A stretch of 64,000 nt of DNA from Paracyclopina nana. Taxonomy: Eukaryota > Arthropoda > Copepoda > Cyclopoida > Cyclopettidae. Positions within the stretch are counted from its first letter, which is position 1. Each line of letters starts with the position of its first letter. Location: the NCBI GenBank assembly GCA_019096065.1, contig JAGUCH010000009.1, positions 1,932,001 through 1,996,000 on the forward strand, read 5' to 3'. A program made the translations under genes and the position numbers. Positions 23,809 to 56,496 of this stretch are shown here, in pieces. The notes under the pieces are model-generated. The model had not been told where the DNA came from. It worked only from the letters and a program-made list of their open reading frames with translations, and searched no databases.

Positions 23809-24525
23809 TTACTCAAAGCCTTCATCACCATACTTATTTGAGGCTGAACTACCACGTTGTCTTCTTGATTCAGGAGGAATTTCTGGATCGGGGCGAAACT
23901 GCTGCATTTCCCCATAGACGGGTCGACGTTGTTGATGTTGAGCAGCAATGCCGCGATCTTCATCGGGCTGGCGAGCAACTGGAGGAATATAGAGCTTTTG
24001 CTGATCTCGCACTCGGTGCTGATCCCTCAGCATGTCGTATGACATGCCGGTGTTGGACCCCTCCAGCTTGGACTTGACTTCCTCCTCTTCTTCAAACATG
24101 GGAACGACCGTTTCATTGCTGTAATTGTTGGAGGATTCCGGGTCTGGCATTCCGTTGGATTTGCGAATGGCCTTGGCGATTTCAGAGTTGGGAGCATCAC
24201 GGAGGAAAATGTCACGACAGACTGACGCATAGGTGATTTTGCCCAAAAAGTAGCCGGCCGTGGCTGCTCCGATGGTTTTCGGCCAGTGGCCGAACCTCTC
24301 ACTGCCACTGAGTTTGCCTGCTCTGACACCGAACATGACAGCTCCTCCCATGAGCAAAGACAGTGGCAAAGATCGTTGCCAAAACGCGTTGTCCCGACAT
24401 TGCTTCAGCACTTTCTGCTCCTCTGGACTTAAACTTGTCCCCGGTCGCTGAGGATGTCTTCGGTTGAAATTTTCTGCCTGGAAATCGCTCGGATTTTGCG
24501 GCTGCTGCTGGTCTCTTGAATTCAT
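23809..24525 (-). CDS. OCIA domain-containing protein (OCIAD1/asrij-like)
   Basis: Single coding exon of 717 nt, 238 aa, starting at the ATG at 24525 (MNSRDQQQP); the frame continues upstream only through a non-ATG codon. The OCIA domain spans about residues 32-125: LSPEEQKVLKQCRDNAFWQR, a hydrophobic segment (LPLSLLMGGAVMFGV), GHWPKTIGAATAGYFLGKI, then YASVCRDIFL. The C-terminal half is disordered, acidic in the middle and glutamine/arginine-rich near the end. OCIAD proteins sit on endosomes and mitochondria and in Drosophila (asrij) affect blood-cell maintenance and endosomal signalling. That role is family knowledge, not visible here. Confidence 0.9.
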   Translation of the reverse strand: MNSRDQQQPQNPSDFQAENFNRRHPQRPGTSLSPEEQKVLKQCRDNAFWQRSLPLSLLMGGAVMFGVRAGKLSGSERFGHWPKTIGAATAGYFLGKITYASVCRDIFLRDAPNSEIAKAIRKSNGMPDPESSNNYSNETVVPMFEEEEEVKSKLEGSNTGMSYDMLRDQHRVRDQQKLYIPPVARQPDEDRGIAAQHQQRRPVYGEMQQFRPDPEIPPESRRQRGSSASNKYGDEGFE

Positions 24526-24955
24526 TCTCAATATCTACGTACTTTTCGTCACTTTCATGTTTGTTTACGATTTTCGTCTACTTTTGTTGACATTCCAAAA
24601 ACCATCCCACTTGAAGCTAGACTTTTATTCTGTTTGCGCATTAAAGCAAGTGCGTCAGTCGAGTTTGCGCTCAGTGATTTCGCGGATTTTCCAAAACTGA
24701 GTGAAATCTGTAAATGAGTGAAATGATCGCGATCAGAGAGCTGATAAGAAAAGAGAGCTAAGAATAAAAACTTCAAAAAGGTAAGAAAATTTTGACAAAA
24801 TCCTGCTTTTTTATTAGCTTGCGCGAGTTGCAAGAGAGTTAGCTATGAAAATCTGTAAACTGGTTAATCCAATTCACATTTGAGTGTCTGATTATAACTG
24901 TTTCGTGAGTCTCAATTAAGCAAATAGCATAAGAAAAATGATAGCGCATTGAATT
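24526..24955. other. Spacer upstream of OCIA-domain gene and downstream of LNR gene
   Basis: 430 bp between two minus-strand genes. It should hold the LNR gene 3' UTR and the OCIAD promoter. Nothing else recognised. Confidence 0.5.
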
Positions 24956-27900
24956 TCATTTTTTATAGACAGGTTTGACTGTTGTTGTCATGACAGTCGT
25001 TGTGGGCTGAGAAATGCCATAAATTTGCTCAGTTCTGCTTTTGGAAACTATGGCACTCCAGTAATCCTTGTTGAATGTGGCCACTTTGTTGTTTTCATGG
25101 CAAGTGCAGTTTTTGCAGACATTGGTGCCAGGGTAACGTATGTTGGCTCTGCAACAGTCCCCTTGATCATAATTGCAGGCCTCAATATTAGTTTCATCTT
25201 GGCAAATGAAATCTTTCAATTGATTTTGAATATCTTTGGAGCAGCCATTTTCTAAAGAGGAAACGCACGTTGCTTTCCTTTAAGATTGAAACAATAATAA
25301 TAATAATATTACGTGAAGCTAAGGTGTGTTGAGAGTCAGTGGCAACACAAAAGCAGTCAACACAGTTTTTGTCAAAAACTGTGCTTGTACAGCAGTCTCC
25401 AAAATCATACATGCATTCTTCCGTGTTGGCCTCATCATCACAAAATCCATCTCCTAGGAAGTTGAATGGATAGTAGCAATCAGATTCTGAAATTAAAATT
25501 ATGATGATGAACATTTTTTTGAAGATAGCTTCAAACCCTCATAAATTGGGTGCTGAGTGTTATCCAAGTAGCAAGTGCAGTCAACATCTTTAACACATTT
25601 TTGGTCTGAAACCATAGGCTTGCAGCATTCTCCATTATCATATAATCTGTTTTTATTATTCCATGGGCCATCACAGAGTCCATTCTCAACATTTAATGTT
25701 TCTTTGTAGGTCAATGTTAACCTAATTCCTAAAAAAAAAGAAATTATTTGAAAAAACAGTCAAAATTTAGTGTATTTTCAAACCCCAAAATGCTGAGATG
25801 GGCCAAAAATCATTGTTGTGCACATTGGTACTCATTGAGCTGAGAGCAAGGAGCAATTTGTCCTCAGTGTTCCAATGCCTTATTTTCTCACTCATGCACA
25901 TGCAGTCAGTGCATTCTGAGTCATCAATGATTAGTAAGCAGCAGTCTCCAAGATCATGCAAGCATTGTGGTGTATTGAGCTCATCATGGCATTTCCCATC
26001 ACCTAACTTTGTTGTGTCATTTGTGTAACACCCATTCCTGTGCATTGTCCTATGCTTGAAATTTGTTCTGTTGCACCAGCATCCTTGGCCAAAGCAGTTG
26101 TCATCATTGATCAAGGGCATGCAACAATCTCCTCCATCCCAGCCACATTTTTGGTTATTGTTGACTTGATCACAGGCCCCATTGCCCAAAGTCAAATTGT
26201 TGCAAGGATCTACACAAATATGCAATTTGAAACTGAATTTATTTTTAGTGCTATATTAAAGATGTTTCCCACCTGTTTCATTGTAAACAACTCTCATGCA
26301 TGCCCCTCCATCAAACCCACATCTACTGATGTTGAGCTGCTTGTCACATTTGCTGTTATAGCCAGTTCCCCATTTGCTAATGAAGCCATAATTTGGGCAA
26401 CCATTGGCTGAAAAATGTATCTGTCTAGCTAAGAGTGTAGTAGTAAAAAAGCCCTAAAATAACCTCTGAGAGTGGGCATGATGGTGTCTGTGAGATGGCA
26501 TTTACAATCATCTTTGTAGCACTCCATATCAATTAGCATAGGAGAGCAGCACTTGTTGCCATGAAAGTTGCATTGGTGCTTATTTTGGGCGCCAACACAA
26601 CCAGTCACATAATTGTCAATAAGAAAGAGGTTGGTACCTCCAGTAGCCAAGCATTCCTCTTCAGAGCAAAAGCTTTGAAAAAATGCCAAAATGCAAAAAA
26701 GGGGACTACTTTTACCTTGTCTCAAGGGAGTGTAAGCATTTTGGGACATGTACAGGCCCAGTTCAGTGTCATTGCCATACATTGGCGCCATGCATTTGCT
26801 TGCAGCAACTGCGGGCAAGCAACATGCTCCATTGTCCCAGTCACATTCAGGGTTGTTGAATTCTTCATCGCAGACTTCATCAAAAAGATGTACTGAAGCC
26901 CCATCAATTTTGCACGTTGGATCTGTAAAAATTTCAGTCTCATTCAAGCTTCATTTTTCAAAACAAATATTGCTGACGTTCATATTTGGGATGTAGAGTG
27001 TCATCCTTGTGGCAATGACAAGCCTTGCTAGGTGAGGGTGGGCAAAGTGATGACTCTATTTGAGGCAAACAGCAGTCACCCCCATCATAAAGGCAAGTGC
27101 TGTTGTTCATTGTGGGATCACAAAATCCATTTTGTGGGTATTCACCAAAGAAACTGCTGGATTTCTCGCATGCTAAAAGGTTTTAATTAATTTTGAAAAT
27201 TTGATTAATGGCAGTGAAAAAAATATCAAGCAATTTGGAAAGTTTGAGAAATAACTGTGATGTAGTAAGTTTACGCCAAGGTCCTGTAAAGAGTTCAGTG
27301 GTTGTTGTTGAAGTTGTTGTGGTTGAAGTAGTAGTAGCAGTAGCAGTAGTTGTTGCTGTTGTTATTGATGCTGGTGTAGTTGTTCCCATTGTTGTTGTTG
27401 TTGATGATGAATGATTGCTGTGAGTAATAATTTCGGTTGAAGTTGTGCTCATGGTTGTAATTTCAGGTGCTGTTTCTGGTGTTCCACTTGATGGTGACAT
27501 TGTGGTAGAAGTTGGAATTTTAGTTGTACCTCCACTTGTTGTCATTGTAGAACCAAAAGTTGAATTTGTCGCAATGATTGATGTTGTGGTACTTAATTCA
27601 ACTGAGCTGAAGGTTTCAGTCATATTAGTAGTCATATCATTTGTGGTTGTGAAATTATCAGTTTTGGGTGATGAATTCATTGAAGTTCCACTAATTGTGG
27701 TACCATAACTTGGTGCTTCAGTCTCCATTGTTTCATTGGATGTCATTCCAGCTTCACTTGTAGCTTGCGTAGTCCCATGAGTTGCATTTGTGGAACTGCT
27801 CATGGATGATGATGTAGAATTAGATATCATTCCAGTTTCACTTGTTGATGAGGTTGTCTCATAGGACGTATTTGTGGAACTGCTCATGGATGATGAAGTT

Positions 27901-28814
27901 GTATTTGTAATCATTCCTATTCCACTTGTTGATTGTGTAGCATTGCTTGACGCATCTGTGGAACTGCTACTAGAAGGTGTTGTCGCATTTGAAGTTGTTC
28001 CACTTTCACTTGGAGCTTTGGTTGTCCCAATTGATGTATTTGTGGAACCGCCTTGAGATGATGTTGTAGAGTTGGTTGCTCCATTCGATGTATTTATGGA
28101 GCTGCTAACAGATGATGAAGTTGCATTTGTCATGGACCCAGTTTCACTTGTGGATTCTGTAGCCTCGTTGGATGAATTTGTGGAACTGCTTCCAAATGAT
28201 GTTACACTGCTAGCTGATGCATTATTGCTAGCTTCGTTAGTAGAATTTGTGGAACTGCCCTCAGCTGATGAAGTAGTTTTTGGAGTCATTCCAGTTTCAT
28301 TTGATGAATTTGTGGAACTTGCTTCAGATGACGAAGAATCATTTGAAGTCAATCCTGTTTCACTTGATGATTTGGTTGTTTCATTTGATGAATTTGTGGA
28401 ACTTGCTTTAGATGACGAAGAATCATTTGAAGTCAATCCTGTTTCACTTGATGATTTGGTTGTTTCACTTGATGAATTTGTGGAACTTGCTTCAGATGAT
28501 GAAGTATCATTTGAAGTTATTCCTGTTTCACTTGATGATTTGGTCGCGGAGCTGCTTTCAGATGCATTACTAGTTTCATTTTTAATTGTGGAACCACCAT
28601 TTTCATTATCTGTTGATGCTTTGGTTGTTTTTGAGGTAGAGTCTGTTGTTTCTGTAGGCATTATCTAATATCAAACATTTCAAGTTTGTAAATGCAGAAC
28701 CTTACCACTATGATTATTTCGGTACACAGCCACTCCAATCAAAGTAAAAGTGCCTACAGCCGCAACAATGACCAAAGCTATAACGACTTTGGTCAAAACA
28801 CCTTCAACAGCCAT
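24956..28814 (-). CDS. Type II membrane protein with mucin-like stalk and about nine Lin12-Notch repeats
   Basis: About ten exons, roughly 1,100 aa. Exon 1 starts at the ATG at 28814 and encodes a short cytosolic tip and one membrane helix (VVIALVIVAAVGTFTLIGVAVY) with no signal peptide, suggesting type II topology. The next exon joins in phase at an acceptor in GCCTACAG and encodes about 460 residues of Ser/Thr/Asn (many N-x-S/T sites, partly as 28-residue repeats), a mucin-like stalk. Seven or eight short exons then give LNR units, e.g. GFCDPTMNNSTCLYDGGDCC, GACDQVNNNQKCGWDGGDCC and GFCDDEANTEECMYDFGDCC. Most units are followed by a C-x(2-4)-C-x-C tail. No Notch, protease or other catalytic domain was seen. 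LNRs bind Ca2+ and regulate proteolysis in Notch and pappalysins; the role here is unknown. Three units have lost acidic residues (CNFHGNKCC, CGFDGGACM, RLYDNGECC). Confidence 0.85.
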
Positions 28815-31638: not shown

Positions 31639-32861
31639 TCAAGTCTTGTTAGTTCCTCTTTCTCGGTGGCATTTTTGGATGAGATTGCCGAAATATTTTC
31701 TGTAGCCCCAAGCCACGAATCTCAACAGCCCAAGAAGTGAGGCTTGAGTGAGGATGTCCATGAGGTCAGCATCGGCCATTCCAGAGGTCAAATTGGTCAA
31801 CATCCATCCATCGAGGCCATTGGAGGTCAAAAACTTCCCCTTGAGGCCTCCTTGGAGCAAAGTTCTGAAAAAATTCATTTTAAAAAATTGTTTTCTTAAC
31901 AAACATTTACCAAAAGGAGGTCAAGCCCAAGAATGGCAAAAAAATATTGATGAGATTGCATTTGAAAAACTTTTCTTTTTTTGATGGGGCAGCTTTTTAA
32001 AGTAAGTTCACAATGCTGTACAAGCCTTCAGAAAATGCATAATTCTTGGGTTTGGATGAAAATGAATGACAGCAATTACTTGGCCACAATGTTGGGCTGG
32101 AATAATCCAGCTCCCTCAGATATGAGCTTCGTCTCCTCGGGCTTAGTCTTGTTTTCCTCTTCAAATCCAGGTGTGTCAGTGTCAGGTGGGCAATTGACAG
32201 ACACTCTTATGCCATAGGGAGCCACCTCCATGCCAAGAGCCTCAGCGTAGCCTCTGATGGCAAACTTTGATCCGCAATAGGCCGCAAGGCCATACACTCC
32301 AGCGAGGCCAGCCAAGGAGGAGGTGAAAATGATGGCTCCATTCCTGGATGCCATCATGTCAGGCAACAAAGCCTGGGTGACCATGACAGAGCCCAAGTAA
32401 TTGACCTCGGTCATCCTTCGCACATCAGCTTCTGGAACCTGGTGAGCTCGTCCTGGAGCAGAGAAGCCCGCACAGTGGATAAGCACCTTGACAGGTCCCA
32501 ATTGATCCGTGAGAGGCTTGAGGCTGGCGCGAATATCCTCAACAGATCCGGAGACATCAACGCTCGCATAAGCCACTTTCTGCTCCTCTGGATTGACAAG
32601 GTTGTTGGTCAACAAATCCACGACTTCCTTGAGCTTGTCCGCATTTCGGGCCACAATGGAGACGTTGGCACCCATTTTGATGGCCTCGATGGCAACCTCT
32701 TTGCCAATCCCGGAGGAACCGCCAGTGATCAAGACATGCGCATTTTTCACCTCCACGGGCTTGTTTAACAGCCTCAAAGTCAGTGCAATCAAGAAAATGA
32801 CCAATTGAATGCAGAAACCGACGATGAGAGGCAATGCTAGTATCACCGCCATTGAGGTCAT
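31639..32861 (-). CDS. Kdsr: 3-ketodihydrosphingosine reductase
   Basis: Two exons (32861-32080 and 31864-31639) give 1008 nt, 335 aa, the usual length. The N-terminal membrane helix (VILALPLIVGFCIQLVIFL) is followed by a short-chain dehydrogenase fold: nucleotide loop ITGGSSGIGK, VARNADKL, SVDVSG, HCAGFSAPG, INYLGS-type NYLGSV, FTSSLAG, catalytic YCGSK, and the family-specific PPDTDTPGFEEENKTKP. The C-terminal exon (LTSGMADADLMDILTQ) contains the usual C-terminal membrane region. It reduces 3-ketosphinganine to sphinganine with NADPH on the ER face, the second step of sphingolipid synthesis. It is head-to-head with ETFDH, start codons 384 bp apart. Confidence 0.95.
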
Positions 32862-33245
32862 TATTTTTGTCTATCACAGTTTTATTATTATTATTTTATT
32901 TTTAGCCTATCCTTTTTTCTGTCAAAGTCCAGCGTTGAATGTTGCACAAGGTATTAAAATCGAGGTAGCGCTTTTTTGGTTTGTTTACTAGTTTTCCGTT
33001 TTTGTTCTAATTCTAAGCTGATTATGGCCAATTTCGAAACTTCTAGTCAGCCTCATTATCACTTTTTGTTTTTTGAGCGTGACATGTGCTCATTTATGAG
33101 ACATTTCTGAAAATGCTCGAAGGATAGGAAATGCGCTACCTCGATATAGCAACTTTGATGTGCTTCAAATGTAAACAAGAAAGTTGTCGAACCTTGAACA
33201 TCAAAATAACGTAACCCGTCGGAGAAATCTTGGTCAACTAACAAA
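32862..33245. promoter_or_regulatory. Shared divergent promoter region of KDSR and ETFDH
   Basis: 384 bp between two opposite-facing start codons of housekeeping genes, so both promoters must lie here. The ETFDH start is in an AAAATGGCGGC context that also matches the YY1-type initiator motif common at metazoan housekeeping starts. An open minus-strand frame (33059-33331) crosses it but resembles nothing and lacks ATG-plus-splice support. Confidence 0.55.
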
Positions 33246-35390
33246 ATGGCGGCTTCTTCTGTCGCCTCAAGACTTCTCAAAGTCAAAGGTAAGCCTAGAA
33301 ATTCAACTGACTTTATCATGACATCCGCCATTATCCGTCAATTGCATATTTTGCCAAAAATTGACGCTTACGTAACTCTTAATTAAGCGAAAATTATGCA
33401 TGACAGGCTTAAATTCAGGTTGCTTTCAGGCTGGTGTCCTCTTGGCCTTCGTTACCAAAGCACGTTGACTGCCGCCGGGAATCCCGTTATAACGACTCAT
33501 TACTCGGTGAAGAAGCGAGACAATGATCCGAGGTGGAAGGACGTTGACATGACCCGTGAAGCTGCCGAGTATAATGCTGTCATTGTCGGGGGTGGACCAG
33601 CGGGTCTGTCGGCAGCAATCAGGTTGAAGCAACTGGCAGCTGAAAAGCTGGAAGGTGGCGCAGATGACTTTTCGGTGTGCGTCATCGAAAAAGCTGCCAA
33701 CGTTGGTGGCCATATTTTATCCGGAGCTTGCCTTGAACCCTCCACTTTGACAGAGCTCATTCCAGACTGGAAAGAACGAGGAGCTCCCCTGAACACGCCC
33801 GTAACTGAGGACAAGTTTGCCATATTGACTGAAAAAGGACGAATTCCTGTGCCCATTTTCAAGGTGATTGGACTTTTGAAATGCTTTGGCTTGTTTGTTA
33901 CGATTTTCTCTAGGGCTTCCCAATGCACAATCACGGTAATTACATTGTCAGAATGGGGCATTACGTTGAATGGCTTGGGCAGCAGGCTGAGGAATTGGGC
34001 GTGGAAATTTACCCTGGATTCGCTGCCAATGAAGTCCTCTTCCATGAAGATGGAAGTGTCAAAGGTGTGGCTACCAATGATGTTGGTGTGGCCAAGGATG
34101 GCTCTCCCAAGGATAACTTTGCTCGCGGCATGGAGTTCCATGCACCTGTCACTCTCTTTGCGGAGGGCTGTCGCGGCCAGCTGTCAAAAGACCTGATGAA
34201 AGCTCTCAAATTGAACGATGAGAACGAACAGCAAGTGTACGGCATTGGCATCAAAGAGCTGTGGCAAGTCCGTCCAGAGGTCCATCAACCGGGACGCGTT
34301 GAACACACCGTGGGATGGCCACTTCCAGATGTCAAAACCTACGGTGGCTCTTTCCTTTACCACTTAGCTGATGACAACCTCGTCGCAGTTGGATTTGTGG
34401 TTGGACTCGACTACAAGAATCCCTATTTGAACCCCTTCAAGACTTTCCAGCAGTTCAAAATGCACCCTTCTGTCAGACCTACTTTTGAGGGTGGAACTAG
34501 GATTGGCTATGGTGCCAGAGCCCTCAATGAGGGAGGATTACAATGCATACCCAAGTTGACATTTCCTGGAGGAGCACTGATTGGCTGCTCTGCCGGATTC
34601 ATGAATGTCCCCAAAATCAAGGGAACTCACACTGCGCAGAAATCAGGAATGCTTGCAGCTGAAGCCATCATGGAGGAGCACCTGAAAGGAGAACAACCAA
34701 CCACTGGAGTATATCTCACCAACTTTGAGGACAAGATGAAAAACTCCTCAATTTGGAAGGAGCTGAAGGCTGTCAGGAACGTCAAGCCTGCTTTCGCAAA
34801 GTATGGCCTTTATGGAGGAATGGCGTATACAGGCTTGTTCTATGTCCTTGGACGAGGTCTAGAGCCTTGGACTTATAACCATGGCCACACAGATCACAAT
34901 TCGACCGAGGACAAGGCAAAACATCAGCCCATAGAGTATCCCAAGCCTGATGGCGAGGTCACGTTTGACCTCTTATCCTCTGTGGCCTTGACTGGCACCA
35001 ACCACGAGTCAGACCAACCTCCGCATCTTACTCTCAAAGATGACGATGTGCCCATGGCGGTTAACTACGAGAGGTTCGATGGACCAGAGGGCAAATTTTG
35101 TCCTGCAGGTGAATAAAAAACCTTCGTAATTGCGACTTATGAAGCATTTTAACAACATTTTCCCGAAATAACCTACATTTGGAAATTCTAGCATGCATTT
35201 CTGATTATGATGGACTTTTTCAGGCGTGTACGAATATGTTCCACGCGAGGATGGCAAAGATGGAATGAGACTGGTGATCAATGCTCAAAATTGCATCCAC
35301 TGCAAAACGTGCGACATCAAAGACTACAGCCAAAATATCAACTGGGTGTGTCCTGAGGGCGGCGGTGGACCTGCCTACGATGGAATGTAG
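33246..35390 (+). CDS. Etfdh: Electron transfer flavoprotein-ubiquinone oxidoreductase
   Basis: Four exons (33246-33288, 33430-33863, 33914-35108, 35224-35390) give 1839 nt, 612 aa, close to the family length. The N-terminus ([15 protein letters not shown]) is a mitochondrial presequence. FAD loop [66 protein letters not shown] and the C-terminal 4Fe-4S domain with cysteines in [12 protein letters not shown] and [13 protein letters not shown] are all present. The exon 2 acceptor must be tgctttcag|GC; the upstream alternative breaks the frame. It passes electrons from ETF (fatty-acid and amino-acid oxidation) to ubiquinone at the inner mitochondrial membrane. Confidence 0.97.
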
Positions 35391-37173: not shown

Positions 37174-40100
37174 TTATTGGGGATTTTTTGTTAATTCACT
37201 AAGAGCATGAGAAGCTTTGCCTCCAAGGATTTTGCTCTTGATAACCCAAAGCGAATTTCTTGCACTAACATCAGCATCCAAGGGGATATCAGAGAGGCCC
37301 TCGTAGCTCAAAAGACTGTTGATCTCCACTTTGGCCATTAAGTCCACCATTTTGGAGCCTCTCGAGGGCTTCTTTATGTCTAGCCTTGATTTCAGGCTTT
37401 GGCTAATAGAGGCCACGATTTCTGGACAGATGAGGCTCTGATCCTGCCTGGACATGGCAGAAATGATGGCTAGTTGAGGGCCCACAAAAAAGTGTCCAGG
37501 TCTCTCGATTTGCCATTGGAGTTGGAAGGCAGCAATCCAAAAGGCTAAGAGTAGGTCAAGCTTTTCGTGGCTAGCACACTCGTAGAGTAGAGATCCCATC
37601 ACTTCCTCATACTTGTTTGAGTTTGCAGCTGGTGTATTTTCCTGGCGAACAAAGGCCTTGGCAAAGCAACTCACTCCAGGCTCCGAGGAAAACGAGGCCA
37701 GCAAGGCTGATGAGGCAGACAGACTCCAATGAAATGAAGTATCTTGAGTCAAGACTTGAGCTGTCAACGACCGAAATCCCTTTGGATCCTCCTCATATGA
37801 CAAACAGCCGGCCTTCTTTTTTACTCTCAAAAGGCCGTGGCCTTCATTGAGCAATCTGCGAAGAGATTCCAAGTCGTCAAAGGTCACTTTGTGGTATCTC
37901 TCATCATCAATGCTGATTCTCTTCAAGAGATGCAGCTCTGGTAACATACACGGTGCTTTCACCCTCAAATTGAAAGCATCATACCACATTGTCTCTCGAA
38001 ATTCAATGCTCACGTGAGCGAAAACCTGGAATGAAAAGATAAACTTCCATTGCATGAATTTAATGGCTCACGCAGCACAACTTACATTTTTGTTGGTACT
38101 TATGTCCTTCGGTATCAAAAGCCTAGGCTCAGCCGCTAAAACGTACAAGTGTCGCAGAGCCTGGAGGTGATAGCGATTGTCATTGGAGTGAGTTGGGAAT
38201 TTGGGGAAAAATGCAGCCACCAAAGCTGCAACTGACTCAGGCTTGGTATTCAGAGTGAATCGTCCTCCGCCCAAAAATAATAGCCCCAAGCCCATATGCA
38301 AAGCCATGTGTGACCCATAGGTGACAGTTGAATGTATGTTGGGTCCAACTCGTGACCTCAAGAATCGGACCAATCGAATCACATCAAGGTCACCTGTGCC
38401 AGCCATGACCAGTGACAAAGACAAGACAAGTATACATATTGTCTGTTCCATCGTAGCCTTTCCTGCGAGCTCAGCCACGGACCTCTTGGAAATGGCGAGC
38501 AACTTTTTGGTCATTCCATAGAGGGCCTTAAAGGCAGCTTTGTTGGCCGTGCCAGCAAACCTCATGCCCATGGCCAAAGAGGCTCCGGCCACCAAATTGC
38601 AGTAAGCTTGATTGATAGTCTCGTAATCAATGTTCGAGTTCTCGTCATCACTTGGCCTCACCATGCAATGAGGCCTTATTGTGGCCGGAACATGAGACAC
38701 AATCCACTCTGTGCTTGGCAATATTTCGTCCCACATGATGAGGCCCCTGGCTAAAGTTCTTAACATCAAAAAGTCTGGCCTGACAAACTCGAGCAAAAAA
38801 CGAGAATCGGGAGCCTCCAACCACGAGGCCACTCGGGCGTTGCCTGACCTGAAAAACATCAGACCAAGAGCCAATGTGGCACCTGGACTGGTCACGTCAA
38901 TATTGATAGTATCGCCCTCTTGCACTTGGTACGAAGGAGATCGAAACTTGCTGCGGCCTCCACAGAGAGTTTCTGGCCTCGGGCCTCCAACCATATGGTA
39001 AAAAAGGCTTTCGGGAAGATTGAGATCCCTGAGTGCTCCATTGGAGAGAGATTCTCCCTGGCCAAGGGTAATCATTCCAAGGGCTAGTCCAGCTGCCAAT
39101 GAGTAGCTCTCACGATCGGTGCAATTTTCCAATTCTGGACCAGGGGGACGTCCAAGCTCCCCCAAGCAAACTTCAGCCATATGCCTGTGCCCAGTGCCTT
39201 GGTACAAAAGGCCAAGTCCAACCAGACCTGCAACTTGTGTGGTGTGCGACAATGGCAATTCCGTGGCAGTTGGGGGCAATAAAGCTTCCAATTGGGTGGA
39301 TATCTTCTTGGTGGCTAAAATATCCATGCTTCCTCTCTTGGCAGCAGACATGCCCAAAAGCAAGCCAATCGATATCATTTCATTGCCTCGAATCTAACAT
39401 ATATATCATTAAAGAATTTCTTCATAAGTAATAAATAGAGAGAGCTTACCAAGTAGTCGAAGGATTCAAGCTTGCCAAGCTTCGCTAGATGGCCGTTCAG
39501 GCCTAAGGCCATGAGAAAGCCTCCATGTTCCACCTGGTCATTGGGGTTGCCTGCACCATTTGGGGATTCTTTGGGTTTGTTGAAAGTGATCCACGTGGAA
39601 TCAATGATCTCATTGACGTCACTTGGCACACGAAGACCAGCAGCTACTCCGTTATGGAAAGAAGGCCAATGATCCATGTGGGGCACTACATCAATATGGT
39701 CCATTTCGACAGTCGTTCCTCTGGGAGGAGCCTTGCCATTCAGGCAAAGCTTGGGAATAGAAACGGGCTCAGTGGGCAAAGGAAAGGCTGTTTGAAAGGC
39801 CAAAGCACCGCGGCCTACAGGCAAGGCCATTGTTCTTATGCACAGGCTTTGGAGGTTCCTCTCTTGCTCCTCAACGAAATCATGATCAGAGACACCTGGC
39901 TTTTGCTGCACTCCAATAATCACAGGCCTGGCAGATTGGAGCAATTTGCGAACTTCGGAAACTCTTCGGTCCTTTGGCCACCTCAAACGAGCAATTTCGC
40001 TGTCTTCAATGTCATCAAGGCCGTCATCGACATAGCCTTCATTGGCAGGAGATTCGACCATTTTCTGAGGCTCCAAAGATGACGTTTTTGATGGATCAAG

Positions 40101-42871
40101 CTCAGGCCTTCCGATTAGGACATACGCTTTGGGGTTCAAGAGTCCACCTGGAGGTGGCGAGATTCTGCACTCGTAAATGGAGGCTAATATTGGTAAAATG
40201 AATCCGATAGGAATGCTCTGAACTGCCCACCAATTGTAGCCTCTATCCACGAGGAAATCCACAATTCGACCAGCTTTATGCTTGGTCGCCTCCAAAGCTT
40301 TCTTCCGTGCAATTGAGGACTCTGAGGAAAATACGTCTCTGCAATAGTCCTCTGTTTGGACTAATTTGCCTTTGGCAGCGAAAAGGGCGAACACAAGGAG
40401 AATATCTTGCGTTCGATCAGTGACTCCACAAATGATGGGGAATTTGGGCCTTTTTAGCGGCTTGTTCAACAATATGGCTTCTAAGGTTGGAAAGATGCTC
40501 GGTGGGCATGTGTCATGGCCGAAAAGATCAGACGTCTTGATTTTCTCCTGGATTTGGCCAGTTTTGGCCTTGGACGAATCCATGTGGCATACGGTGGGGA
40601 AATCCCTCCAATAATGTTGAACAAAGGCTTCAAGGCCAAGATCAGCAGCGATTCTCGAAAGGAGAGACGCCAAAAGGGGACAATAGTTCCAGCAAAATTT
40701 GTTGAGTTTGCAGTCTTCAAACAGCAAATGCAAAGCCATGAAAACTTTGCAAATGTACGGGAACAAAGGCGATTCTTTGTTGATCACCTGTTGGAATTGG
40801 GAGCCTTTGTTGCTGTTGTCCAGCGGATCCGGTGAGATGTAGTCGATTCCCAGAACAAATGACAATTGTTGCCCAGATTCGTAGTGAGTATTAGTAGCCA
40901 GAAGGTATTGCCAATCTCCGTCACAGCCCTAGGAAAGGAGCAAACCAAAATAGAAAATTCAGCTTTTTCAGGAAGCCAATCAGGGACATTAGCTCAGAGA
41001 AAAAGTACTCTTACATCATCAGAATGTTTCATTTTCTTAGATGAGCACGGTGACGACATTGACGAGTCTCTTGACGCAGTAGCCGATGGAAAACCCTCAG
41101 TGGAAAAATTGATGCTCTCTGTATGGTATCCCATAAGCTTCATAATGCACCTAAAATGCAGGCAGTATTAAAAATGTTTTTGCTTCTTGACCATAGTAGG
41201 CCTTAGGCTAGCTTTTTCATAGAGATAATACGTACTTGGCGAACATGTTCCATTCCTGAGCATTGCTTATGCTCGAAGGTCCGGGGGAGTTACGCAAACT
41301 GTACCATTCTGCCAAAAGAACTGAACAGGTCTCTCCCAAAGCCGATTTCATGGCCTTGAAGCATCTCCCTATGAGGCTAGAAGAGTAGGTCTTGGGCAAA
41401 GCCAAGCGAACGAATGCACCATTGTTGTACTCCAAACATGCAGTGCTATCAAGCACTCCGTGCAGGAATTTTACTGTAGGTGTCTTGACCTCCGAGCTGA
41501 CAGGAGAGAGAAGAACGGAATCATCTGAGAAAAACTTGGGGTCCAAAGCTGAAGCCGGCCTAGATGAGGTCACAATGTTTTGGCTATTGCTACTATCTAT
41601 GTGCAAGGTGGCAATTTCCTGAGCAATGTGAGACATTTGCACACTAGGACTATAGTTGAAATGAACGCCACAAACTCGCACAGCTCCAGAATATAGGCTG
41701 AGCCTGCTTTGATGGTCAAGGGTCAAAATCATGCCGAGCTCATGACACGGAGTAGCATCTGCCAAATCCGGAATAACGCTCAGGGTGAGTCCAAACTCGA
41801 GTATGTCCGGATCATATTCAAGGATATGAAGACCGTTCTTCAAGAAGGCTAGATACTGCTTGCCCACGAGGTCAATAGCCGTAAAGACTTTTCTGCTTGG
41901 ACCAGCTCCACACTGATGTGGTTCGGTCCAAAGGTGCTCCAAGCAGAGGCTTAGATCAGGTGGCTGAGGTTCTTCCGGATTTCGGATTTGTTGGCCTTCA
42001 TTGGCCCCAGCTGTAGAGGCCAAAAGGAGTGAATTAAGCCTGGACTTGGCCACTGAAGGAGAACGGCAAATTCTGCCCAAACTGTTGTTTGGCGTTGGTC
42101 TGGCTGAAGATCTGGCCTCCATTGAGATCGATCTTGAATTGGGAGTGACACTGAACGATGACAACAATCTGCTTGAACTGTTCTTGAAACTGTGCCTCAT
42201 CATTGGCGTGCCAATGACATCAGTGACATTAGCGAGATCTTCCTCATCACATTTTCGGAGCTTCCAAATTGAGTGAAGGCCACAATCGTTGTCATAGGTG
42301 ACCACCAACGAGTTGGAGCTGAGCAATTTGATCACATTCCTCCGGCCTCGACGCCACTCCACCATTTGAGCACCTTTTTTCGCCACGATTCGAGTAAAGT
42401 CCTCGAGGGGATGGTGTAGGGCCAACAGCTGGGGCATATTCGTAGCCTCAGCCACCGTGACATTTCCCTCTAGAACAAGACCGAACGCTGAGGACCAGAC
42501 CCGACCCAAAGGCAAAGGCAATGCCACCAAGAATTCTTCTCCATCTGGAGAATAGATGCGGAGACGGCTTGATTCTCGAATTACAATGTAAGTTCCCTGT
42601 GTTTCGTCGAAATTCGTGAATAAGCTTTGTAAGCATGGATTCTCGCCTAAAAGTTTTTAATTAAGATTGGTCAAATTCTTTGAAAGCAAGAAACGGGCTT
42701 TTGAGTACCGGAAAGTGCCTTGACAGTTTTGCCGGAGTGCCTCACTTCCACACAGTTTCCTTTGCGCCATAACTCTTCTTGAACTTGGTAGCCATCACAA
42801 TCATGCTGACGGATGTCATCCCGGACCCAGCCTCCACCCAGCACCTCCTCCACGACATTGGCGCTGATCAT
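37174..42871 (-). CDS. Anapc1: Anaphase-promoting complex subunit 1
   Basis: Six exons (42871-42709, 42646-41236, 41150-41015, 40928-39450, 39393-38086, 38025-37174) give 5349 nt, 1782 aa (human about 1,944). The N-terminal WD-like part has PELCIDHLWTE-type text (DLSLCLEHLWTEPHQC). The middle has DDGLDDIEDSEIARLRWP, RKLLQSARPV, RTMALPVGRGALAFQ, SFHNGVAAGLRV and GFLMALGLNGHLAKL. The PC-repeat toroid follows with LLLGMSAAKRGSMDI, VGLGLLYQGTGHRHMAEV, CTDRESYSLAAGLALGM, SPSYQVQEGDTINIDVTSPG and SNDNRYHLQALRHLYVLAAE. APC1 is the scaffold of the cell-cycle E3 ligase APC/C in the nucleus. The start at 42871 is the only ATG in the first exon; it lies 68 bp from a hAT MITE. The 3' end nearly touches the 7TM gene (38 bp between stops). 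Confidence 0.97.
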
Positions 42872-55149: not shown

Positions 55150-55808
55150 GATTTTGATTTTTGGGCCATTGCTAAAAAAACCTTTTCTTAATCCGCCCTA
55201 AATGCTGTTGCTACTCTACACCGAGTCTCATCCGCAAACCTTTCTATACGCTATCAACCATTGTACTAATTCCAGTTTAAATGTAGATTTCTTGGAGTTA
55301 ATTCGTCAGAACTTAAAGTATATTTTGATTTTCGGGCCATTGCTGAAAAAACATGTTCCTAATCCACCCTAAATGCAGTTGCAACTCTACACCAAGTCTC
55401 ATCCTCAAACCTTTCTATAAGCTATCAACCATTGTACTAATTCCAGTTTAAATGTAGATTTCTTGGAGTTAATTCGTCAGAACTTAAAGTATATTTTGAT
55501 TTTCGGGCCATTGCTGAAAAAACATGTTCCTAATCCACCCTAAATGCAGTTGCAACTCTACACCAAGTCTCATCCTCAAACCTTTCTATAAGCTATCAAC
55601 CATTGTACTAATTCCAGTTTAAATGTAGATTTCTTGGAGTTAATTCGTCAGAACTTAAAGTATATTTTGATTTTCGGGCCATTGCTGAAAAAACATGTTC
55701 CTAATCCACCCTAAATGCAGTTGCAACTCTACACCAAGTCTCATCCTCAAACCTTTCTATAAGCTATCAACCATTGTACTAATTCCAGTTTAAATGTAGA
55801 TTTCTGGG
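55150..55808. repeat. 171-bp tandem satellite, nearly four units
   Basis: The landmark GGGCCATTGCT recurs at 55163, 55334, 55505 and 55676, an exact 171-bp period. Units 2-4 are almost identical, unit 1 is about 10% diverged, and the last unit breaks off after ATTTCTGGGAGT. The units contain no open frame. The array is embedded in a very AT-rich block. Confidence 0.93.
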
Positions 55809-56496
55809 AGTATTCATTGTGCGTTTATTCCATGTTTTTAAGAAATTTCAAATCTAACTTAGAAAACTATTCAGAGATGGCTCTGCTTGCAATTCAATAA
55901 TTTGTAAAATTGTTCTTATCTACAACTTTTAGTGGTTTTGAGATTTCAAAAATCTTCATTAATAGATGTTGTTTAGAACAACATGAAAAGTGAGTTAGTA
56001 AGTATCATGAACCTCAGTTTTTATACAAAAACTGAGATTTTTAGAATATTTCAATATTTTATGCTATGTAACACAATATTTTTTAAAGTCAGATTTTTTT
56101 ATGTCTAAAAGACTTACAAATGAAATGAGTCATTAGAGTGGAGTGAGCCTACAAATTTCAGGCTTACCATTTGTACAAATTGTAAATTAAAAATAGAGCA
56201 AAGAAGTAAAATGTAATAAATACAAAATTACATAATTAATAAAAAATCAAGATTAATAGTAAGGAATATAGAAAAAAGTGATTGAAATAATTCACATTTT
56301 AATTAATCCAAACAAATGTAATCAATAATTGACATTTCCGATGAGAAAATATAAGAATATAAGTATGTATTATAACAGTCATAACACAAGTTTTAATAGA
56401 ATTATTTAGGAACAAAATATTGTTGAAATCCAGTTTGATTATAGATTTATTGGCAAAAATAGACATTTCATAGTTAAAAAAAAACAAGTTTGGGAG

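Follow-up and report, generated by a model that had tools for sequence, protein, structure and literature searches.

What kind of protein is encoded on the minus strand between positions 24956 and 28814 of a 64,000-nucleotide stretch of the genome of the copepod Paracyclopina nana? This stretch, hereafter the window, corresponds to positions 1932001-1996000 of contig C9 (JAGUCH010000009.1) in an assembly of 92 Mb in 10 contigs. The gene codes for a protein in which a membrane helix and a Ser/Thr-rich stalk are followed by nine units resembling Lin12-Notch repeats (LNR). The best explanation, which we consider fairly probable, is a membrane-tethered protein that binds extracellular proteins multivalently and, in part, with the help of Ca2+, and that belongs to an expansion of LNR proteins (LDPs) as in Oithona nana.

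The coding sequence runs from an ATG at 28814 to a stop codon at 24958-24956. It comprises 10 exons and 9 introns and yields a single protein of 1108 residues in one open frame throughout. This exon chain confirmed the coordinates and the order helix, stalk, LNR given in a preliminary description, which had been made from the letters alone. All nine introns are of the GT-AG type and in phase 1, with lengths of 40-102 bp. As the exon edges were placed by hand for phase and GT-AG, the fit at any single junction is by construction; the gene model draws its weight from the fact that all nine junctions allow such a fit. The features are as follows:

24956..28814, minus strand: whole gene, with membrane helix, Ser/Thr stalk, nine LNR-like units and short C-terminal tail (single open frame, phase-1 GT-AG introns)
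28706-28814, minus strand: exon 1, which holds the helix (exon chain)
28722..28787, minus strand: N-terminal membrane helix, probable signal-anchor, residues ~10-31 (hydropathy 2.75; related frame at C2:13595838)
27275..28651, minus strand: exon 2, Ser/Thr/Asn-rich mucin-like stalk (composition; 84-bp repeat; Ser/Thr-rich frames in relatives)
26978..27172, minus strand: exon 3, LNR-like unit 1, 8 Cys (unit alignment; PF00066 E 5.8e-5 on the open frame)
26716..26922, minus strand: exon 4, LNR-like unit 2, 6 Cys, without CxC (unit alignment; PF00066 E 0.021, below cut-off, frame shared with unit 3)
26464..26658, minus strand: exon 5 with LNR-like unit 3 (8 Cys; without the acidic core; unit alignment)
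26273..26407, minus strand: exon 6, LNR-like unit 4, 4 Cys, no CC and no C..CxC (unit alignment; unit 4 of the C2 paralogue likewise has 4 Cys)
25784..26209, minus strand: exon 7, holding both LNR-like unit 5 and unit 6 with 8 Cys apiece (unit alignment; PF00066 E 2.9e-4 in two stretches; AlphaFold pLDDT 88.4)
25537..25728, minus strand: exon 8, LNR-like unit 7, 6 Cys, core Cys 1 and 3 absent (unit alignment; C2 unit 7 lacks the same pair)
25313..25486, minus strand: exon 9, LNR-like unit 8, 8 Cys (unit alignment)
24956..25272, minus strand: exon 10, in which LNR-like unit 9 (8 Cys) is followed by the C-terminal tail (unit alignment; no PF00066 match on the frame; C2 tail partly similar by eye)

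For exon 7, a shorter form ending at the stronger-looking donor at 25891 was set aside. The longer form was preferred because, in the paralogue on contig C2 described below, a partly similar stretch runs up to a donor-like site; this was judged by eye and is not proof.

The helix at about residues 10-31 reaches a best Kyte-Doolittle mean over 19 residues of 2.75, and no such 19-residue mean starting beyond residue 40 lies above 1.0. A type II topology, i.e., an uncleaved signal-anchor with the C terminus outside, is what hydropathy alone suggests. The hydrophobic start could also be a cleaved signal peptide, which would make the protein a secreted one. This form was predicted for 49 of the 75 O. 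nana LDPs, compared to six membranous ones, in the available part of the O. nana study (PMC8301441). However, in the window gene and in three relatives the hydrophobic stretch has a length of ~20 residues or more and no obvious cleavage context by eye, and secretion seems unlikely, if still with a noticeable chance.

The stalk comprises 460 residues starting at residue 37, of which 258 are Ser or Thr (56%). A single helix after the start codon and a Ser/Thr stalk of about this length had both been described before and were found again. The stalk contains 29 N-glycosylation sequons and no Cys, and is partly built of tandem repeats of 84 bp (28 codons), located at 28294-28544. Being long, rich in Ser/Thr, free of Cys and repetitive, it is mucin-like, with the glycosylation itself being predicted. 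Pfam domains were not found in the stalk frame, and a match to NCBIfam EbpS (E 0.0011, 18 bits against a cut-off of 300) was discounted as low-complexity.

The downstream part had been described as nine LNR units. The number was retained and PF00066 exceeds its cut-off, but the units are LNR-like rather than canonical, with 8 Cys in six of the nine (units 1, 3, 5, 6, 8, and 9), and units 5 and 6 lie in one exon. The Cys counts of units 1 to 9 are 8, 6, 8, 4, 8, 8, 6, 8, and 8; the LNR part has 65 Cys, 64 of them inside the units as delimited. In place of the canonical six-Cys pattern, the aligned units lack one canonical pair and carry extra Cys elsewhere: a core Cys pair is lost, and GDCC and C..CxC are gained. 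This pattern of core, GDCC and C..CxC is that of the pappalysin LNR3 and C domain, reduced in units 2 and 4 and without two core Cys in unit 7. The pappalysin LNR3 and C domain ranks first in the profile search and in a structural second look, whereas Notch does so in the single-sequence and Foldseek rankings. Both Asp of the DxxDC core, which presumably are the Ca2+ ligands, are kept in five of the nine units (1, 5, 6, 8, and 9), so that the Ca2+-binding array proposed earlier is supported only in part. The Ca2+ ligands of LNRs comprise aspartate side chains and backbone carbonyls, according to the available part of PMC3145759.

The search with the profile PF00066, which the preliminary description had proposed as a check, gave 25.9 bits for the whole LNR part against the curated cut-off of 21.2 (E 1.3e-5, five stretches). 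When four open frames were tested, a set which did not include those of units 4, 7, and 8, two were over the cut-off (21.7 and 23.9 bits), one was below it (15.7 bits), and the frame of unit 9 gave no match. The units unseen by PF00066 were identified by alignment to one another and to the units of the C2 paralogue. Besides PF00066, the Pfam search of the LNR part returned only IFRD_C below its cut-off (E 0.24), which agrees with the earlier statement that nothing else was recognisable. The modules have a predicted LNR fold, and the AlphaFold model of exon 7 (units 5-6) has a pLDDT of 88.4.

A genome search with the N-terminal 51 residues led, besides the window, to one related place, C2:13595838 (44% identity, E 4.6e-4). 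It contains a helix and a long stalk of NGTTLST-like Ser/Thr repeats in one open frame. Some 4 kb further downstream on this strand begins a long array, whose LNR-like unit 1 lies in one open frame with a shorter Ser/Thr stretch. This array consists of 36 units (13601497-13611265, region to 13611343), arranged in four tandem sets of nine with a spacing of 2465-2467 bp. Cassettes 2 and 3 are identical at 2461 of 2462 positions and the remaining pairs at 91-96% (excluding gap columns, of which there are 6 to 600 per pair). Because the cassettes are near-identical, their growth may be recent or homogenised, or partly a matter of the assembly. In the present assembly, the frame of unit 7 is broken in two of the four cassettes.

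The units of both genes correspond by number. The best-scoring C2 unit has the same number for seven of the nine window units (exceptions 4 and 9), and in the reverse comparison this applies to six of the nine C2 units (exceptions 3, 4, and 9). Both genes share a unit 4 with four Cys and a unit 7 lacking the same two core Cys, while unit 2 has 8 Cys on C2 and lacks the last two in the window. The codon and unit comparison used one C2 copy per unit out of the four, and its version of C2 unit 2 stopped short of the last two Cys. Over 445 aligned codons, the differences by codon position amount to 166/165/270 and the non-synonymous divergence dN is 0.52, with the synonymous divergence dS not estimable. 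Each of the 64 Cys in the window units aligns with a Cys of the C2 units, in 29 cases with the other codon. The array is thus coding and under strong constraint on its Cys. The tail after C2 unit 9 is partly similar by eye to the C-terminal tail in the window.

The order helix, stalk, LNR is present at three other loci of the same genome, with inferred exon joins, the C2 paralogue being the closest of them. At C2:12706720 (minus strand), a hydrophobic start and a Ser/Thr stretch are followed by at least eight LNR units, and at C9:4695612 (plus strand) by nine LNR units with Ser/Thr linkers; at both, the pieces lie in different frames and are joined by inference. At a fifth locus, L005 (C5:6408989-6412078), a hydrophobic start and a short spacer precede one LNR unit. 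Separate transcripts for the stalk and the LNR exons, which would have spoken against the preliminary description, are probably not to be expected, because the C2 paralogue has a homologous helix and stalk upstream of a homologous array, with a Ser/Thr stretch in frame with unit 1, and because two more loci are alike. The same evidence bears on an artefact, in which a low-complexity Ser/Thr frame was wrongly joined to a genuine LNR gene. Simple repeats can yield Ser/Thr-rich open frames and several donors look weak, but the phase fits at every junction, a related helix and stalk lie 5′ of the C2 array, the Ser/Thr stretch is in frame with C2 unit 1, and the order recurs at two further loci, which makes such a wrong join very improbable.

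Ser/Thr-rich frames were also found 3′ of the helices in L042, L044/L024, and L031; the stalk sequences diverge yet stay Ser/Thr-rich. This touches on the possibility of a structural mucin of the glycocalyx, cuticle or gut lining, in which the function would reside in the stalk and the array would be only a cross-linking head. The 56% Ser/Thr of the stalk with its tandem repeats fits such a role, as does the variable sequence of the relatives' stalks. On the other hand, the strictly kept part is the Cys framework, and L023, L026, L029, L030, and L038 carry LNR-like units with no frame above 33% Ser/Thr (loci of ~3 kb, outside of which stalk exons may lie). A mainly structural mucin is thus considered quite unlikely.

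In the genome-wide searches, which score the best candidates only, at least 150 matches were listed for the array query (E up to 0.01) and 38 for PF00066 (E up to 0.001). Merged, these form at least 52 LNR clusters at a gap of 5 kb and 56 at 3 kb, where clusters are not equal to genes, were not checked individually and include the Notch-like locus. Furthermore, 118 non-overlapping profile matches (domain E <0.05, canonical LNRs included) were counted in 28 of 45 loci and the window; the remaining loci are repeats of the same places or not in the count. The units of L024 line up by number with those of the window less cleanly than the C2 units do. In L031, positions 1675-2401 (C9:4696399-4697125) hold four near-identical LNR units of another type with Ser/Thr linkers, a case of internal tandem growth. 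L021, L023, and L038, on different contigs, have in common a long LNR-like array in a single frame (403, 397, and 398 amino acids), and look like another conserved subfamily of LNR proteins. Of 26 pattern matches in viral contigs, none proved to be a relative by tblastn. The genome also has 80 matches to PF00379, which we take to be the arthropod cuticle domain, whereas neither COX1 nor an rRNA pattern was detected in the assembly. The proposed lineage-specific surface protein, displaying an LNR array on a stalk that can be glycosylated, is supported insofar as the gene belongs to an expanded, probably lineage-specific group and is apparently membrane-anchored.

For a tethered binder, the following mechanism can be assumed. 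The helix would act as an uncleaved signal-anchor, placing stalk and array outside the cell, and the glycosylated stalk would lift the array off the cell surface. The array would form a string of small modules stabilised by disulfides and, in part, by Ca2+. By analogy with pappalysin LNR3, these modules may bind extracellular proteins multivalently through avidity, which a gain or loss of units could tune, the sister gene carrying the cassette four times, i.e., 36 units. Some observations call for caution. Several donor sites are weak-looking and the 57-bp intron 4 can be read through in frame, for which reason the exact exon ends are provisional. Ca2+ binding by the array is supported only in part, because no more than five units have both core Asp. 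Finally, the single-sequence and Foldseek rankings place Notch, and not pappalysin, first.

The preliminary description had suggested a decoy or regulator for LNR-dependent proteases. In such a role, the array would shield or present a cleavage site, or serve as a protease decoy or scaffold, which is near the proteolysis hypothesis of the O. nana study. In the available parts of the literature, the LNRs of Notch are believed to shield a cleavage site, and 12 O. nana LNR proteins have trypsin and eight metallopeptidase domains; the authors propose LDP-guided proteolysis (PMC8301441). Yeast two-hybrid experiments linked two LDPs to matrix proteins, a trypsin, a Wnt5-like and a furin-like protein, a trypsin-type LDP binding a trypsin and another one the furin-like protein (PMC8301441, available part). 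These links concern other LNR proteins, and direct support for the suggestion was not obtained: Pfam found no heterodimerisation or protease domain in the window gene, the array lies at the opposite end from the membrane helix, and the LNRs of PAPP-A are described, in the part of the literature available, as binders of substrate and inhibitor and not as shields. A guard of proteolysis is therefore rather improbable.

Within the binder explanation, a more specific proposal can be put forward tentatively and is perhaps doubtful. The genes may form a distinct, undescribed "LNR-mucin" subfamily, in which a nine-module cassette of the pappalysin LNR3 type is the evolving unit and is multiplied as a whole (9 to 36) to tune a Ca2+-dependent surface binder in copepod cell recognition, e.g., in male or gamete interactions. 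Irrespective of this proposal, the window gene provides the poorly understood LNR gene burst of a small copepod with a concrete, testable subfamily, namely an apparently tethered array. Its module has the Cys pattern of pappalysin LNR3, whose Ca2+-dependent partner binding is already measured, and growth from 9 to 36 modules by cassette would amount to a natural test of avidity. Once partners are found, the reason for the multiplication of LNR genes in these animals becomes directly testable.

Just downstream of the LNR gene and on the same strand lies a gene for an OCIA-domain protein (PF07051, E 1.6e-23; 23809-24534, minus strand). Further genes in the window encode a rhodopsin-family receptor (1052-2458, minus), a cytochrome P450 (15657-17205, plus), a short-chain dehydrogenase (32076-32870, minus), and an ETF-ubiquinone oxidoreductase (33387-35116, plus); pieces of the anaphase-promoting complex subunit 1 occur in several open frames (37174-42656, minus). 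A 171-bp tandem repeat (55151-55811, 3.9 copies, 97% matches) lies within the 2-kb stretch of lowest GC content in the window. Elsewhere in the genome, L046 and L047 (C7:5367081 and 5372439) comprise adjacent metalloprotease-like frames; Thr-rich stretches come after these, and the end is rich in Cys and Lys.

Among known systems, the LDPs of O. nana are compared first, on the basis of the available part of PMC8301441. There, 75 LNR genes with 178 domains are reported, 156 of these being LNR-like with two Cys lost; 47 LDPs are LNR-only, as are three of the six membranous ones, and 18 LNR genes are specifically upregulated in adult males. Four other copepods have at most eight LNR domains each, as read from this source. 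Such an expansion, with LNR-like domains of at least four Cys in dozens of genes, is also seen in P. nana, with 4-8 Cys per unit and 52 clusters. Both species share the LNR burst (75 genes there, 52 clusters here), LNR-like domains with a loss of two Cys, LNR-only members predicted to be membranous, and tandem duplications. The undescribed system that had been suspected is thus not upheld, as a burst including membrane LNR-only proteins was already published for O. nana. In contrast, the available part of PMC8301441 describes no Ser/Thr stalk, nine-unit cassette or 36-unit protein, gives 5 LNR and 13 LNR-like domains as the maximum, and does not mention a likeness to pappalysin LNR3. The build of anchor, stalk, and cassette was not found in the open-access literature on LNR proteins in copepod, mucin, tandem, and pappalysin contexts, a coverage outside of which the first Oithona genome paper lies. 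The build, the 36-unit relative and the likeness to pappalysin LNR3 appear to be unreported, whereas the gene family itself is known.

In Notch, three canonical LNRs are located next to a heterodimerisation domain. The window gene shares with this negative regulatory region the LNR fold, PF00066 and the top Foldseek rows, but has nine non-canonical units, and EGF repeats, a heterodimerisation domain and ankyrin repeats were not found in it by Pfam. The genome has its own Notch-like locus at C2:12954946, with EGF-like frames (by eye) and three adjacent PF00066 matches. Pappalysin-1 (PAPP-A) carries one copy of LNR3 and C domain at the end of a large metalloprotease, whereas the window gene has nine copies, a helix and a stalk, and no M43 or other peptidase domain according to Pfam. 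A resident pappalysin was considered as the parent gene; an origin from it is unsupported, because no LNR-like frame was seen by eye beside either of the two genomic M43 matches within their ~3-kb loci. In pappalysin, LNR3 takes part in the Ca2+-dependent binding of substrate and inhibitor, as far as the available source goes. With type II mucin-stalked membrane proteins, profile searches gave no family match. The likeness, which we assume to be one of build, consists of an N-terminal helix, a Ser/Thr stalk, and a folded distal head, which in the P. nana protein is an LNR array.
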